From Archangium violaceum (GTDB lineage: Bacteria; Myxococcota; Myxococcia; Myxococcales; Myxococcaceae): a stretch of 64,000 nt of DNA. Shown one piece after another: positions 13,773 to 19,721 of the stretch. Every line of letters begins with the position of its first letter. The first letter of the stretch is position 1. The stretch is taken from assembly GCF_016859125.1 (NCBI RefSeq), contig NZ_CP069338.1:9303501-9367500 (forward strand). Direction: 5' to 3'. Made by a program: the position numbers and the translations under genes. The notes under the pieces are model-generated. The model did not search any database, was not told the DNA's origin, and was given only the letters and a program-made list of their open reading frames with translations.

Positions 13773-14506
13773 TGTATCCCGTGGAGGTGCTGACCCTCTT
13801 CCCGGACAGCGTCTCGGGCTACCTGAGCGCGAGCATCCTCGGGAAGGCCCGGGAGAAGGGGCTGCTCGGCGTCACCGTCACCTACGTGCGGGACTTCGCC
13901 GAGGGCAAGCACCGCGTCACCGACGACACGCCCTACGGGGGCGGCGCCGGCATGGTGATGAAGCCCGAGCCCCTGGTGGCCGCCATCGAGGCCGCCCGGG
14001 CCCGCGCTCCCGCCGGGGCGAAGGTGCTGCTGATGAGCCCTCGCGGCCCCGCCTTCACCCAGGCGAAGGCGCGCGAGCTGGCCAAGGAGCCCGGCCTGAT
14101 CCTCGTCTGCGGCCGCTACGAGGGCGTGGACGAGCGCGTCATGCCCTATCTGGACGGGGAACTGTCCCTGGGGGACTTCATCCTCACCGGGGGTGAGGTG
14201 GCCGCCCTGGCCGTGGTGGACGCGGTGGCCCGGCTGCTACCCGGGGTGCTGGGCAACGAGTCCTCCAGTGTTACCGAGAGCTTCGAGGAAGGGCTCCTGG
14301 AGCACCCCCACTACACCCGGCCGCCCGTCTTCCGCGGCGCCGAGGTGCCCGCCGTCCTTCAGTCTGGCGACCACGCGCGCATCGCACGCTGGCGCCGCTG
14401 GAAGGCCCTGCAGCTCACCCGGGAACGGCGTCCGGATCTGTTCGCCCGCCTGGAGCTCGGCAAGGCGGACACGAAGCTGCTGCAGAAGAAAGAGGAGGAG
14501 TTGTAG
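13772..14506 (+). CDS. trmD: tRNA (guanine-37-N1)-methyltransferase
   Basis: 244 residues; methylates G37 of tRNAs with G36 and so prevents +1 frameshifting. The SPOUT knot is visible in [15 protein letters not shown] and [21 protein letters not shown]. The N-terminus [11 protein letters not shown] and [18 protein letters not shown] are family hallmarks. It starts at the ATGA overlap with rimM, and rplS follows after 133 bases. Confidence 0.96.
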
Positions 14507-14639
14507 CCCCTCCAATGGTTTCCGGACAATGGTCGGTGTTCTGCGGGCTTGTCCGACCCCCGGCTCTCTGGTAGTACGGCCCGCTCTCAAGTTTCGTATA
14601 CCCCGAGTCCGAGCATCAGGGGAGTACTGGAGTCAAGTC

Positions 14640-15044
14640 ATGCGTCGCAGCGCCATCGAGTACGTGGAGGCCAAGAACCTCCGCAAGGACGTTACCGAGT
14701 TCCGCACCGGTGACTCCGTTCGCGTCCACTGGAAGATCAAGGAGGGCGACAAGGAGCGCGTGCAGGCCTTCGAGGGAGTGGTCATCCGCAAGACGAAGGG
14801 CCACAACCGCGCCACCTTCACCGTCCGCAAGGTCTCCTTCGGCGTGGGCGTGGAGCGCATCTTCCCCGTGCACAGCCCGCGCTACGAGAAGATCGAGGTC
14901 CTCACCCGCGGTAACGTGAACCGCAACCGCCTCTTCTACCTCCGCGCCCTCAAGGGCAAGGCCTCCCGCGTGGAGAGCCAGGAGGACGCCGAGATGCGCC
15001 GCGCCACCTCGGCCGGCAAGGCCGCCGAGCAGGCGAGGGCCTGA
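14640..15044 (+). CDS. rplS: 50S ribosomal protein L19
   Basis: 134 residues. The L19 core is clear: [44 protein letters not shown] and the [20 protein letters not shown] region. There is a C-terminal basic and Ala-rich extension of about 20 residues. ATG 14640 is preceded by TGGAG (14628-14632). A terminator lies directly downstream. Confidence 0.96.
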
Positions 15045-15079
15045 TCCGGCTCCGGCCCTCGTTGGCCGGTTCCTTCCAG

Positions 15080-15114
15080 GGGAGCGTTCCTTTTCCAAGG
15101 GCGCTCCCTTTTTT
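15080..15114 (+). terminator. Rho-independent terminator after rplS
   Basis: GGGAGCG (15080-15086) pairs with CGCTCCC (15102-15108) and is followed by TTTTTT (15109-15114). It ends the rpsP-rplS operon. Confidence 0.85.
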
Positions 15115-15144
15115 CATGCCCATGCGCGATAGAATGGGGGGCGC

Positions 15145-17139
15145 ATGCACTTCGTCGAAGTCGCCGTCCAGAACGTCCGCGGGTTCGCCCCAGCGGGCCG
15201 TTTCGCCCTGAAGCCCGGATATCTGGTGCTCAAGCCGCCCGCGGACGTGAGCCCGTTGGCCGGTCTGGCGCTCGCGCTGCTCTACGCGGACGGGCGCGGG
15301 GGTGATGCCTCCTTCGCCGCCTCCGCGCAGAAGCCGGGCAAGGCCGCCCTCACCCTGGTGGGGCAGGACTCCGTCACCTACCGCGTGCTGCGCGAGCTGG
15401 GCGGTGGTGGTTCGCTGCATCGGCTCAATCCCAGCACGAAGCAGCCGGAGTTGGTGACGCAGGACACCGCCGAGGCCAATCAGTTCCTCCGGGGCCAGGT
15501 GGGGCTGCCGCCGCGCACCACCTTCGAGCAGCTCTTCTGTCTCCAGTCGGCGCAGCTGCCCTCGCGCCGGCCCCGGGGGGCGGGCCGTCCGGCCTCGACC
15601 TCGGGCCTGGGTCTTCGCTCGGCGGGATCGTCTCCGGGCCTGCCCGCCCTGCATTCGCCGTCTTCTCCCGGCATGCCGGCCCTGCGCTCGCCGTCGTCCG
15701 GAGGCATGGCGATCTCCGCTTCGGGGCTGGGCCTGCAGACGGTGCTGCCCGCGTCGGACATCCCCGCCGCCGAGGCGAAGCTGCGTGAGCTCGAGAAGGA
15801 GCTCGTCTTCTGCAAGGAGGTCGACAACCTCCAGTTCGAGGTGGACGGGCTCAACTCGCAGGTCTTCGATCTGGAGTCGAAGCTGCGGAGCACCGACGGA
15901 TTGAAGGAGAAGCTGCGCGAGACGGAGGCGGCCTGGTCCGCCGAGCCCACGCCCGAGTCCTTTGGTCTGCCCCAGGACATCGTGGCCCGCGCGGAGCGCT
16001 ACTCGCGGACCCTCGCCCGGCGAGACGAGGCGCTCGCGCGGCTCAACTCCGAGCGCGAGGTGGCCGAGGAGGAGGCGGCGCGTCTGCCAGACGTGGAGCC
16101 GCTCGTGCGCAACCGCAACTTCTGGATCGCCGTGGCCGCGGGCGTGGCGTGCTTCATCGCCGGCTTCTTCTTCACCAACGCGGGCCGGTACGTGGCGCTG
16201 CTGGACATCCCCGCGTTCGGCTTCGCGGCCGTGCTGGCCCTGCGCTACGTGGACGAGCTGCAGTACAAGGACAAGATCCTCCGCCGCGGCGAGATGTTCG
16301 TCGTGCGCGAGAAGAAGATCCTCGAGGAGTTCGAGGCTGAGGCGGGGCCGGTGCGCAAGGCTCTCGAAGTGTTCGACGTGGACACGCCCAGGGAGATCGC
16401 CCCCCGGCTCCAGCGGCGCGAGCAACTCGGCGCCGAGGTGGCCCAGTTGCGCGCCGAGCTCGTCGCCATGGAGCGGCATCCGGAGCTCGTCGAGGCCGTC
16501 GAGCAGCTGCCGGTGATCCGCCAGCAGATCGAGCTGCTCAACGCGAAGATCGCGGAGAAGGGCTCCTTCGTGCGCGACGTGCGCGAGGTGGAGCGGGAGA
16601 TCCTCCGGCTCAAGGAATCCATCGCGCTCGCCCGCAACCCGCAGCTGGCCGGAGCGGGGCTGATGCCCGGCGCCGAGATGGGCACGGGCATGGAGCCCCT
16701 GGAGGATCCGTCGCCCCTGCTGCTCGGTCTGACGGGTGATCTGCTCGCCACGGACGTGCACGCGGTGGTGGGGATGATGCGGGAGCGGTGCGTGCAGTAC
16801 TTCAGCGCGCTCACCGAGCGCCGCTACGTCGGCGTGGAGTGGGACAGGGACGGGCGGACGATGGTGGTGGCCGCCTCGGGCCGGCGCATGCCCGTGGGCG
16901 AGCTGGCTCCGCGCGAGGTGGACCTCTTCTTCCTCAGCCTCCGGCTGACGGTGGTGGAGAAGGTGAGCGCCCGGGTGAAGCTGCCGCTGCTCGTGGAGGA
17001 CGCGCTGGTGGGGGTGGACGAGACCCGGATGCCGCTGCTGGCGCGGATGCTCAAGCACCTGGGCACGCTGACGCAGGTGCTGCACGTCACCCCGCACGCC
17101 GGCTTCGCGCAGATGTCGGACGGGACTGTCACTCTGTAG
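15145..17139 (+). CDS. membrane-anchored SMC/YhaN-like protein with degenerate Walker A
   Basis: 664 residues, no named family. The N-terminus (FVEVAVQNVRGFAPAGRFAL) looks like the first strand of a RecN/Rad50/YhaN ATPase head. Where the Walker A should be, the sequence reads KPGYLVLKPPADVSPLAG, with no GxxGxGK. Residues about 205-320 and 395-520 are charged coiled coil. Two adjacent membrane segments are visible at about 325-345 (FWIAVAAGVACFIAGFFF) and 349-368. The C-terminal head keeps a signature-like ELAPREVDLFFLSLRL, a Walker B-like LPLLVEDALVGVDE and a His-switch-like VLHVTPHAGF. A Ser/Pro/Gly-rich repeat region lies at about 147-195. It may be a catalytically altered SMC-like protein of the inner membrane. 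Confidence 0.7.
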   Translation: MHFVEVAVQNVRGFAPAGRFALKPGYLVLKPPADVSPLAGLALALLYADGRGGDASFAASAQKPGKAALTLVGQDSVTYRVLRELGGGGSLHRLNPSTKQPELVTQDTAEANQFLRGQVGLPPRTTFEQLFCLQSAQLPSRRPRGAGRPASTSGLGLRSAGSSPGLPALHSPSSPGMPALRSPSSGGMAISASGLGLQTVLPASDIPAAEAKLRELEKELVFCKEVDNLQFEVDGLNSQVFDLESKLRSTDGLKEKLRETEAAWSAEPTPESFGLPQDIVARAERYSRTLARRDEALARLNSEREVAEEEAARLPDVEPLVRNRNFWIAVAAGVACFIAGFFFTNAGRYVALLDIPAFGFAAVLALRYVDELQYKDKILRRGEMFVVREKKILEEFEAEAGPVRKALEVFDVDTPREIAPRLQRREQLGAEVAQLRAELVAMERHPELVEAVEQLPVIRQQIELLNAKIAEKGSFVRDVREVEREILRLKESIALARNPQLAGAGLMPGAEMGTGMEPLEDPSPLLLGLTGDLLATDVHAVVGMMRERCVQYFSALTERRYVGVEWDRDGRTMVVAASGRRMPVGELAPREVDLFFLSLRLTVVEKVSARVKLPLLVEDALVGVDETRMPLLARMLKHLGTLTQVLHVTPHAGFAQMSDGTVTL

Positions 17140-17175
17140 CGCGGGGCCTCCGTGTCGGAGGTCCGGGAGGTTGGG

Positions 17176-17559
17176 ATGGGACGGGGAGGGGCGGCGGTGG
17201 ATCGCAAGGAGTACGGGGACGAGGGAGAAGAGGTGGCGGTGCGCTTCCTGGAGCAGCAGGGCTACCGGGTGCGCGCGCGCAACTACTCCTGCCGCCACGG
17301 GGAGCTGGACGTGGTGGCCGAGCACGGGGAGACCCTCTGCTTCGTGGAGGTGCGGATGCGCTCCACGGCGGTGTGGGGGGATCCTTCCCACACGGTGTCC
17401 TTCAGCAAGCAGCGCAAGGTGGTAAAGGCCGCGTTGCATTACCTCGCGGTCCATCGGCTGCGGGACAGGATGCTCCGCTTCGACGTCATCTCGGTGGTGG
17501 GCCGCGGCGAGCGCGCGACGGTGGAGCATCTGCCGGGCGCCTTCGACGCTGGCATGTGA
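17176..17559 (+). CDS. yraN: YraN/UPF0102 family endonuclease-like protein
   Basis: 127 residues. It has the predicted nuclease fold of the UPF0102 family, with GEEVAVRFLEQQGYRVRARNY, the acidic GELDVVAEHGETLCFVEVRMR core and a C-terminal RFDVISV. Biochemical role is not established in general; a Holliday-junction-resolvase-like fold is assumed. ATG 17176 follows GGGAGG (17165-17170) at a good distance; GTG 17152 is an alternative. It lies immediately upstream of rsmI, its common neighbour. Confidence 0.9.
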   Translation: MGRGGAAVDRKEYGDEGEEVAVRFLEQQGYRVRARNYSCRHGELDVVAEHGETLCFVEVRMRSTAVWGDPSHTVSFSKQRKVVKAALHYLAVHRLRDRMLRFDVISVVGRGERATVEHLPGAFDAGM

Positions 17560-17566
17560 GGCACGG

Positions 17567-18397
17567 ATGCCCGGAACGCTCTACCTGGTGGCGACGCCCA
17601 TTGGGAACCTGGGGGACATCTCCACGCGCGCCCTGGAGACGCTGCGGCAGGTGGCCTTCGTGGCCTGCGAGGACACGCGGCACTCGCGCGTGCTGTTGGA
17701 CCATTTTGGCATCTCCGCGGACACGGTGAGCCTTCCGGCCTTCGCCGAGGGCCAGCGCGCCGGCCGCATCCTGGATCGGCTCGAGGCCGGGGAGGACTGT
17801 GCGCTGGTGACGGACGCGGGCAGTCCGGGCATCAGCGACCCCGGCGAGAAGCTGGTGGCCGAGGCGCTCGAGCGCGGAGTGACGGTGGTGCCGGTGCCGG
17901 GGCCCACGGCGCTGGTGGCGGCGCTGAGTGCCTCGGGGCTGCCCACCGGGCGCTTCCACTTCCTCGGCTTCCTGCCGCGCAAGGGCCCCGAGCGTCAGGC
18001 CATGCTCGAGGAGGTGGCCCCGCTGTCGGCCACGATCGCCCTCTACGAGTCACCGCGCCGGCTGGCGGAGACGCTGGTGGACTTGAAGGACGCGCTGGGG
18101 GACCGGCGCGCGGTGGTGGCCCGGGAGCTGACCAAGGTGCACGAGGAGTTCGTGCGCGGCTCACTGGCCACTCTGGCCGAGCGCTACGCCACCGAGGAGC
18201 CCCGGGGCGAGGTGGTGGTGCTGGTGGAGGGGCGGACCGGCGAGCGCCGCTGGTCCGAGGAGGAGCTGCGGCGTGCGCTGGAGGCGGGGCTCGGGCGAGG
18301 GGAGAAGCTCAAACCTCTGAGCACCGAGCTGGCCCGTCGCGCCGGTTGGTCTGGTCAGGACGTGTACCGGCTGGGACTGGGACTCAAGAAGCAGTGA
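17567..18397 (+). CDS. rsmI: 16S rRNA (cytidine-1402-2'-O)-methyltransferase
   Basis: 276 residues; methylates the ribose of C1402 in the 16S decoding centre. The tetrapyrrole-methylase fold is recognised from PGTLYLVATPIGNLGDISTRAL, VACEDTRHSRVLL, ALVTDAGSPGISDPGEKLV, PVPGPTALVAALSASGLP and RFHFLGFLPRKGPER, all in the usual order. It starts seven bases after the yraN stop. A palindromic repeat follows its stop. Confidence 0.96.
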   Translation: MPGTLYLVATPIGNLGDISTRALETLRQVAFVACEDTRHSRVLLDHFGISADTVSLPAFAEGQRAGRILDRLEAGEDCALVTDAGSPGISDPGEKLVAEALERGVTVVPVPGPTALVAALSASGLPTGRFHFLGFLPRKGPERQAMLEEVAPLSATIALYESPRRLAETLVDLKDALGDRRAVVARELTKVHEEFVRGSLATLAERYATEEPRGEVVVLVEGRTGERRWSEEELRRALEAGLGRGEKLKPLSTELARRAGWSGQDVYRLGLGLKKQ

Positions 18398-18399
18398 AG

Positions 18400-18433
18400 A
18401 CCCTCACCCCGACCCTCTCCCAGGGGGAGAGGG
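18400..18433 (-). repeat. dispersed palindromic intergenic repeat, copy 2
   Basis: ACCCTCACCCCGACCCTCTCCC then AGGGGGAGAGGG: the reverse complement of the copy 1 pattern. It sits between the convergent ends of rsmI and the outer-membrane protein gene, where it could fold on both transcripts. Confidence 0.8.
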
Positions 18434-18449
18434 AGGAAGGGCCGTCACC

Positions 18450-19721
18450 CTAGAACCGGAAGGTGGCGGTGATGTCCACGCGGAAGTCCTTGCTCTCGGA
18501 GGCGTAGAAGCGCCGCGAGACGAAGTCCGTGCGGTAATCGAAATTGGGGTTGAGCTCCGCGGGTTCGTCCGTGATGTCCACCGAACCGTTCGCGTTGATG
18601 TCCTTGCCGATCTTCTCGTCGGTGAGGACATGGTCCGTGTTGTACAGGAGCATGCCCGAGCCCCGGACGGACACCACGTCGGAGAGTTGTGCCGTCAGGG
18701 CGAGCTGGCCGCCAATCTGTACGTAGTCCCCGGTGTAGAGCAGCTTGCGCAGCGCGCCGCTCAGCTCGTTGTAGTAGCGGCCCTCGGACACGTAGTTGGT
18801 GATGGCGCGCAGGTCCATCTTGAACTTGCGACGGGGCTGGTCATAGACCTGGAACTCGGAGCCGAACGTCACTCCAGCCACGTGCGCCGGCAGGATGCCC
18901 GTCGTCTTGCGATCCCATCCCGGGGTGCCGCAGTTGTCCGGGTGGCCGAGGTTCTGCGGCTCCACGTTGCGGTTGTCGCAGTTGGAGTAGAAGCCCGGGC
19001 CCCGCACCGGGATGGTGTAGTGCATCTTGAAGTACGGATCCGCCAGGCCGATCTTCCGCGAGAGCGCCGTGTACAGCGTGTACTTGTGCACCCGGTCGCC
19101 GACGGCTCCCCGGTCGTCCGAAGCCGTCACCATGCTCGGGTTGAGCTGCGCCGCCGTGGGCGCCTCGTAGTCCAGCCCCACCACCCACGTGGGCTTGGTG
19201 TCGTCCTTGCGCTGGTTGAAGACGGACCACGCCAGCCCGAAGCGCATGTTGCCCAGGCCGCCGCGGAACGACTCCAGGGGCACGGCGAAGAGCGGCTCCG
19301 GGCTGTCGGCCACGCAGGGCCTGCCGTCCTCACAGTTGTTGCGGACGGTGTTGCTGGGGATGGAGGAGTTGCCCGCGTTCCGGCCCGAGACGTAGCTCCA
19401 GTCCTCGTTCCAGGCGAGGATGATGGGCAGCCCGAACGACAGCTCCACGTCCTGGTAGATGCCGAAGGCCAGGTCCAGGTTCAGCCGGGTGTCGTGACTC
19501 TTGTACCAGAGCTCGGGAGTGAGCTGACGCGCCTCCCCCAACGGGAGGACCTCGCGGAGGATCTTCGTGCGCCGCTGCGTGTGCTCGAAGCCCACGTCGA
19601 TGAACATCCCGAACGGATCATCGTCCTCGAAGGACGATGCGACGCGGGTGATATCCGCCGCGGTGGCGACGAACGGCGCACCCAGCGTCAGCGCGGCGAC
19701 AACGGCGCGAAGCCTGGACAT
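18450..19721 (-). CDS. predicted outer-membrane beta-barrel protein
   Basis: 423 residues, family not recognised. A cleavable signal peptide is clear (MSRLRAVVAALTLGAPFVATAA). The mature part has alternating hydrophobic strands, such as TRLNLDLAFGIYQDVELSFGLPI and RFGLAWSVFNQ, and ends in DFRVDITATFRF. The terminal phenylalanine is typical of barrels inserted by the BAM complex. Two cysteine pairs occur in loop-like segments. It is likely a surface protein or channel. GGAGG precedes the ATG. It is separate from the M23 peptidase gene by about 120 bases. Confidence 0.7.
   Translation of the reverse strand: MSRLRAVVAALTLGAPFVATAADITRVASSFEDDDPFGMFIDVGFEHTQRRTKILREVLPLGEARQLTPELWYKSHDTRLNLDLAFGIYQDVELSFGLPIILAWNEDWSYVSGRNAGNSSIPSNTVRNNCEDGRPCVADSPEPLFAVPLESFRGGLGNMRFGLAWSVFNQRKDDTKPTWVVGLDYEAPTAAQLNPSMVTASDDRGAVGDRVHKYTLYTALSRKIGLADPYFKMHYTIPVRGPGFYSNCDNRNVEPQNLGHPDNCGTPGWDRKTTGILPAHVAGVTFGSEFQVYDQPRRKFKMDLRAITNYVSEGRYYNELSGALRKLLYTGDYVQIGGQLALTAQLSDVVSVRGSGMLLYNTDHVLTDEKIGKDINANGSVDITDEPAELNPNFDYRTDFVSRRFYASESKDFRVDITATFRF

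Follow-up and report, generated by a model that had tools for sequence, protein, structure and literature searches.

The window analysed here is a 64,000-nucleotide stretch of Archangium violaceum DNA, from a genome assembled as a single contig of 12.68 Mb. The open reading frame at 15145-17139 on the forward strand encodes a protein of 664 amino acids, and the boundaries given for it in the initial annotation are correct. The gene is surrounded by translation and tRNA genes, and from the translations we take the gene order to be rpsP, KH, rimM, trmD, rplS, the window gene, yraN and rsmI; the order of rpsP, rimM, trmD and rplS agrees with the annotation of E. coli K-12. Its direct flanks are rplS and yraN; neither an ATP-binding partner gene nor an SbcD/YhaO-type nuclease gene adjoins it, and no kleisin gene is seen beside it. 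The features are listed below with the basis for each.

15080-15114, + strand: intrinsic terminator downstream of rplS, with GGGAGCG ... CGCTCCC and then a run of six T (scan and reading by eye)
15130-15135, + strand: -10-like TAGAAT, 9 nt before the ATG (upstream comparison of loci)
15145-17139, + strand: very likely a membrane SMC/YhaN-like pseudo-ATPase, 664 aa (open reading frame, model, structure match, relatives)
15145-15567, + strand: N-lobe of the ABC head, residues 1-141 (AlphaFold2, VIA)
15235-15258, + strand: former Walker A slot, residues about 31-38, without a P-loop (sequence comparison)
15568-15759, + strand: Ser/Pro/Gly-rich linker, residues 142-205 (pLDDT below 50 at 148-197)
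15760-16104, + strand: coiled-coil arm 1, residues 206-320, bearing the family motif LQF-x-x-DGL (model, alignment)
16105-16254, + strand: hydrophobic two-helix hairpin, residues 321-370, predicted to lie in the membrane (hydropathy, model)
16255-16644, + strand: coiled-coil arm 2, residues 371-500 (model)
16645-16704, + strand: second flexible linker, residues 501-520 (pLDDT below 50 at 504-514)
16705-17136, + strand: C-lobe of the ABC head, residues 521-664 (profile, model, VIA, hhalign, tblastn)
16903-16923, + strand: ABC-signature position, LAPREVD (LSRGTRE in YhaN) (alignment)
16987-17001, + strand: Walker B position, LLVED (LIVDD in YhaN) (alignment)

The terminator scan matched AAGGGCGCTCCCTT followed by TTTT at 15097-15110, and inspection by eye extended this to the longer inverted repeat and showed similar hairpins at loci L002, L005, L007, L008, L010, L011, L012, L014, L015 and L016. 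Under a strict sigma-70 rule, the region 14400-18600 gave no promoter. At 50 of the 56 set 1 loci, against 0.3 expected, a TAnnnT element stands 7-13 nt upstream of the start; the 56 belong almost entirely to the window's family and, being related, are not independent cases. In 45 of the 50 it stands at exactly 9 nt, and its middle bases differ. The same element is found at 7/18 other loci of the order, 1/9 P-loop loci and 5/18 others, with 0.2-0.3 expected in each group. The comparison suggests that in the window's family the gene has its own promoter and an apparently leaderless mRNA, beside the ribosomal gene cluster.

In 97 of 104 loci, from 101 genomes, rplS is found on the same strand no more than 1.5 kb upstream. 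Loci L040, L089, L092, L098, L099, L100 and L103 have no rplS match; L089 and L092 include almost no upstream sequence, and since the other five have 3.4-4.4 kb of it, the position after rplS is not universal. Downstream, yraN or rsmI is found in many loci, though not in all.

The window protein alone, used as a query, picks up a relative in 56 of the 59 near genomes (its own included), and the family profile matches 123 of the 146 sampled Myxococcota genomes. The matches in G062, G065 and G066 are weak, the one in G065 being a YhaN-like protein, and dropping these three leaves 120 carriers at E 2e-36 or better. A family match is absent from genus group g20 (G024, G134 and G160; 2.1-2.7 Mb), which is in the window's own family group, and from several other Myxococcota groups. 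Word searches of open-access papers found no description of the family. The alignment used below has 78 rows; L009, L027 and L045 were left out as truncated or of unclear reading frame, as were 23 of the 27 loci L054-L080. Median identities to the window protein are 36% in the N-lobe, 38% in the hairpin, 30% in the C-lobe and 23% in the linker, and the positions conserved at 90% or more in 77 rows include E5, Q9, G25, R80, L91, P122, P139, G333, R548, E605 and Q644. At one locus, L093, an in-frame TGA lies inside the match (G096:C21:102311-104317).

Head fold, coiled coil and apical hairpin

The AlphaFold2 model, built with 43 homologues, has a mean pLDDT of 87.9 and a pTM of 0.51, and 488 of its 664 residues reach at least 90. 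Both lobes are modelled confidently, with block means of at least 90 in nearly all of the N-lobe and the C-lobe. In a Foldseek search of the PDB the top match by E-value is Rad50 (6e-11), and VIA-align superimposes the model on Rad50 3qf7_A with Z 26.2 (277 aligned, rmsd 2.9 A) and on SMC heads with Z up to 22.7. In searches with the family profile the E-values are 8e-10 for Rad50 C-lobes and 2e-3 for an SMC. On the evidence of the model, the window protein has a complete Rad50/SMC-type ABC head fold whose two lobes are joined by an antiparallel coiled coil. An SMC/YhaN-type head had been proposed in the initial annotation from the sequence, with structure prediction as the check; the AlphaFold2 model contains the ABC head fold, and this, the Rad50 match and the Z of 26.2 bear the proposal out.

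Family databases say less about the protein. Pfam and NCBIfam give no meaningful match to the window protein and PHROGs and PADLOC give none; weak matches to unrelated families of coiled coils were discounted. A few members match SMC_N (4/43, best E 0.0013), ASRP (8/43) and Rad50 and RecN models, and these sequence matches agree with the fold.

The head-to-coil junctions are two stretches predicted to be disordered, with AlphaFold2 pLDDT below 50 at 148-197 and 504-514. The linker between arm 2 and the C-lobe varies in length, and in the f12 members L101, L105 and L107, whose open frames are 763-1048 aa, it is 354, 156 and 110 residues long by the 78-row alignment, compared with 23 in the window protein.

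The hydrophobic hairpin occupies the spot of the SMC hinge or the Rad50 zinc hook. The window protein has no CxxC zinc hook, and between the arms of the model there are only the helices of the hairpin and no SMC hinge domain. The two hydrophobic helices that had been noticed within the coiled coil are confirmed by hydropathy across the 78 aligned members, where the median 19-residue means are 2.05 and 1.65 for the helices and 1.31 for the best window elsewhere, the second helix being moderately hydrophobic. At a lenient cut of 1.2 both helices pass in 78/78 members and a window elsewhere passes in 59/78; the corresponding counts are 66/78 and 25/78 at 1.4, and 40/78 and 8/78 at 1.6. The top hydrophobic window of the whole protein is a hairpin helix in 77/78, and both helices exceed all other windows in 62/78; in the remaining 16/78 some window elsewhere equals or exceeds one of them. 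Membrane insertion of the hairpin is probable, as predicted from hydropathy and the model.

Loss of the ATP site

The Walker A slot reads LVLKPPADVSPLAG in the window protein versus LLYGPNEAGKSTLL in the YhaN of the same genome, so that LKPPADVSPL stands where YhaN has the P-loop LYGPNEAGKST. The missing Walker A that had been called from the sequence is therefore real, and the reading of the protein as non-hydrolysing is supported as probable: a head that has lost Walker A, together with a hydrophobic hairpin, points to a protein that probably does not hydrolyse ATP. The stretch LAPREVD, described earlier as signature-like, does occupy the place of the ABC signature without conforming to LSxG, and of the 77 rows that have letters at this place none shows LSxG. 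The Walker B-like stretch puts VED, not DD, at the Walker B position, and H651 aligns with the His switch of YhaN. The motifs required for ATP-dependent engagement of SMC heads are absent from the window protein.

Remnants of the site are scattered over the family. Among the 69 P-loop-less rows, Walker B is ED in 29 and DD or DE in 19, the His of the switch is kept in 20, and six retain the LS of the signature. From this often kept acidic pair, the H651 of those 20 rows and the six L-S rows (none of them LSxG) it could be argued that ATP or another nucleotide still binds at a changed site, or that the function is regulated by ATP in trans. However, the P-loop is deleted or replaced in 92/92 genomes outside group f13 and no substitute nucleotide-site motif is seen for it, and we regard retained nucleotide binding as very improbable.

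Absence of the ATPase motifs could also mean that the gene is decaying and on its way to being lost, and its absence from some small genomes, such as those of g20, would fit. The matches listed contain no internal stop except the one TGA in G096, seven pairs of P-loop-less members show dN/dS values of 0.19-0.41, and rplS stands upstream in the 97 loci noted above, all of which speak against decay and leave it scarcely credible. Judging from the substitution rates, the window family is under purifying selection after the loss of the ATP site.

The P-loop position was read in 101 genomes (50, then 24 new and 27), three more loci of the second round coming from genomes already read. GxxGxGK[ST] is present in nine: seven match it strictly and two have A as the first residue. 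These genomes make up 9/9 of a single family group, f13, and a recount over the 78 aligned rows returns the identical nine members. Whether any homologue keeps a P-loop had been raised at the outset, and nine orthologues at the same position do so. A scan of 84,980 species genomes with patterns of the P-loop group matched 70 stretches, of which 9 are relatives, all in Myxococcota, Myxococcales or 'Deltaproteobacteria' assemblies; the nine loci are of f13 type and all have the loop, the ninth (L153) having a protein start identical to that of L082. All P-loop orthologues come from metagenome-assembled genomes of uncultured Myxococcota (accessions include JAUVBB010000324.1, JAFDKH010000011.1, JAUXGL010000077.1 and JAAZNF010000087.1). 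The nine align over their full length with the P-loop-less set (628 columns, E 5e-98), and rplS is directly upstream in 9/9. At E 0.01 Pfam AAA_23 matches 9/9 of them and SMC_N 8/9, and the window protein matches neither at E 1.

Walker B is DD in 8/9 P-loop rows. A canonical signature or His switch is found in 0/9, and because both are lacking throughout, the P-loop orthologues may themselves not be ordinary ATPases. Their own model is of moderate quality, with a pLDDT of 71.8 (9 sequences) and a best VIA Z of 13.1. Two P-loop orthologues have PADLOC matches that fall mostly on the P-loop/N-lobe or the coiled coil, and these were not counted as evidence for defence. No row has a canonical signature, so this motif probably changed earlier than the loss of Walker A; the His is kept in 20/69 P-loop-less rows, so the nine P-loop orthologues may have lost it separately.

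The number of P-loop losses depends on the tree considered. In an unrooted protein tree built without the P-loop columns, which omits 11/78 members (L003, L004, L006, L013, L048, L054, L055, L059, L065, L102 and L104), the nine P-loop members form one clade (support 100, quick method). A linked-gene tree rooted on E. coli places the P-loop-less f12 outside the P-loop group (96/93); it omits 14/49 loci with fewer than three of four neighbour genes, and f15, f19, f22, f24 and f29 are among the groups left out. The linked-gene tree favours two or more losses. Forcing a single P-loop-less clade gives a p-AU of 0.072 in an AU test and is not rejected, so the claim is limited to one loss of the ATP site as a minimum, with perhaps more than one.

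Proposed function and relation to known systems

Taken as a bare statement, that the window protein is a membrane pseudo-ATPase of SMC/YhaN type can be held with good confidence. As to function, our preferred reading (probability roughly 0.6) is of a pseudo-ATPase anchored in the inner membrane, which descends from the YhaN branch of the Rad50/SMC-type ABC ATPases or is its sister, and whose head would serve as a constitutive docking module for a partner protein; an ATP-independent membrane scaffold is the most likely description. In this picture the hairpin would lie in the inner membrane and leave both arms and the head on the cytoplasmic side. The head would no longer cycle with ATP; kept at a distance from the membrane by the coiled-coil arm, it would dock a putative partner protein constitutively.

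Rad50 and SMC heads bind DNA, and a membrane anchor for chromosomal DNA, with the SMC-like head as the DNA contact, had been suggested for this protein. The lobes are near neutral, at +4 for the N-lobe and -1 for the C-lobe in the window protein, with medians of +3 and 0 over 68 P-loop-less members (net charge, not a surface map). DNA contact by Rad50 and SMC heads needs ATP-driven engagement, the neighbours are translation and tRNA genes, and nothing else indicates DNA. The suggestion therefore finds no support, and a DNA anchor is quite unlikely.

The retained head fold could alternatively pair with an active ABC head, as that of an ATP-dead regulatory subunit which inhibits or positions YhaN, SbcC or SMC. 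The own genome encodes all three as well as RecN (labels by family hits and length). An ATPase-dead SMC-like regulator is known from a passage in PMC5373644: SMCL-1 of Caenorhabditis, an SMC-type head without the residues needed for ATP hydrolysis and with a regulatory role, is speculated there to act in this way with condensin in C. elegans. However, no ATPase gene adjoins the window gene, and the signature by which it would complete the ATP site of a partner is missing. PF13514, which spans the YhaN N-lobe only, matches at E 1e-10 or better in 56/146 genomes, of which 55 belong to the 120 carriers, with at most 19 candidates scored per genome. The paired ATP-binding gene that the initial annotation would have looked for is thus not found next door, and since a strong PF13514 match is present in only 55/120 carriers, YhaN is ruled out as an obligatory partner. 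A regulatory subunit remains less probable than a constitutive docking scaffold, and we consider it unlikely.

SMC and Rad50 heads are almost always discussed as ATP-driven machines. A head fold kept without the ATP loop in a probable membrane protein, across much of a bacterial phylum and for the most part at a single chromosomal position, would be of interest in this light, and the orthologues with and without a P-loop provide a natural comparison for what the head does in the absence of ATP. We put at about even odds a wider reading in which the docking scaffold belongs to a phylum-wide, membrane-embedded and ATP-free SMC-like family, with a membrane hairpin in place of the hinge, the head as docking module and an ATP site disarmed stepwise. 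Within it, the signature would have gone first, being already non-canonical in the P-loop orthologues, and Walker A later, perhaps several times, with intact-loop orthologues surviving at the same position.

The nearest known relative of the window family is YhaN, judging by profile comparison. We take SbcE of Bacillus subtilis to belong to the YhaN family (Pfam AAA_27, PF13514). Portions of PMC3896406 and PMC4205851 cite the study of SbcE (YhaN), and the former treats yhaONM as a putative double-strand break repair cluster. In hhalign, the family profile scores 92.7 (E 7e-11) against the own-genome YhaN, 42.1 against RecN, 35.9 against SMC, 31.8 against SbcC and also RecF, and 21 or less against two others, these seven heads being labelled, where named, from family hits and length. 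With a smaller margin, hmmsearch concurs (YhaN 21.2 bits, RecN 14.2, RecF 4.5), and another comparison gives the C-lobe an hhalign E of 1e-11 against YhaN. A tblastn search of plasmids returned 11 records; of the 10 listed, nine carry the annotation 'YhaN family protein' at the match and the tenth 'hypothetical protein', and the matches cover the C-lobe alone (about residues 548-662, 35% identity, E 6e-6, 17% coverage). AAA_27 itself does not match the window protein at E 1, is absent from the families listed for 43 members at E 0.05, and matches 1/9 P-loop orthologues, under the cut-off.

YhaN and the window protein have the same lobe order, and two mid-coil hydrophobic helices are present in 6/6 myxobacterial YhaN with the LSRGT signature. 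Membrane tethering, regarded as unusual in the initial annotation, is hence not so in itself, as the P-loop-bearing YhaN of the own genome has the mid-coil pair too. A seventh YhaN (L108) and two plasmid YhaN are without it. A further 14 YhaN-like loci included four that gave no P-loop open reading frame; among the ten that did, the pair is found in two (L163 and L168), a single helix in L115 and none there in the rest. The hairpin is accordingly common to part of the YhaN-like proteins compared by sequence, and what appears special here is its combination with the loss of the ATP site. YhaN differs in having the P-loop GPNEAGKS, the LSRGT signature and the Walker B DD, none of which the window protein has, and its arms are about three times longer by rough boundaries.

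The own-genome YhaN (L051, L111; G000 C1 about 1282500-1287200) carries the P-loop, LSRGT, Walker B and the mid-coil hydrophobic pair, and what we take to be an SbcD-like gene adjoins it. A 'DNA repair exonuclease' also stands beside two plasmid YhaN. A membrane-bound Mre11-Rad50-like pair, if this YhaN and the SbcD-like gene form one, would merit attention.

With Rad50/SbcC the window protein shares the head fold (Z 26; profile E 8e-10), and it differs from them in lacking the ATP site, the zinc hook and an adjacent nuclease gene, with a hydrophobic hairpin at the apex. It resembles SMC and condensin in the head fold and in terminal lobes linked by an antiparallel coiled coil; unlike them it has neither hinge nor ATPase motifs, and its arms are only about 115-130 residues long. 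SMCL-1 is alike in its ATPase-defective SMC-type head and, in the passage of PMC5373644 concerned, is eukaryotic, has no coil and is limited to some Caenorhabditis. No common origin is implied by the likeness; the window protein, in contrast, has both the coil and the hairpin, and its relatives are spread over a bacterial phylum.
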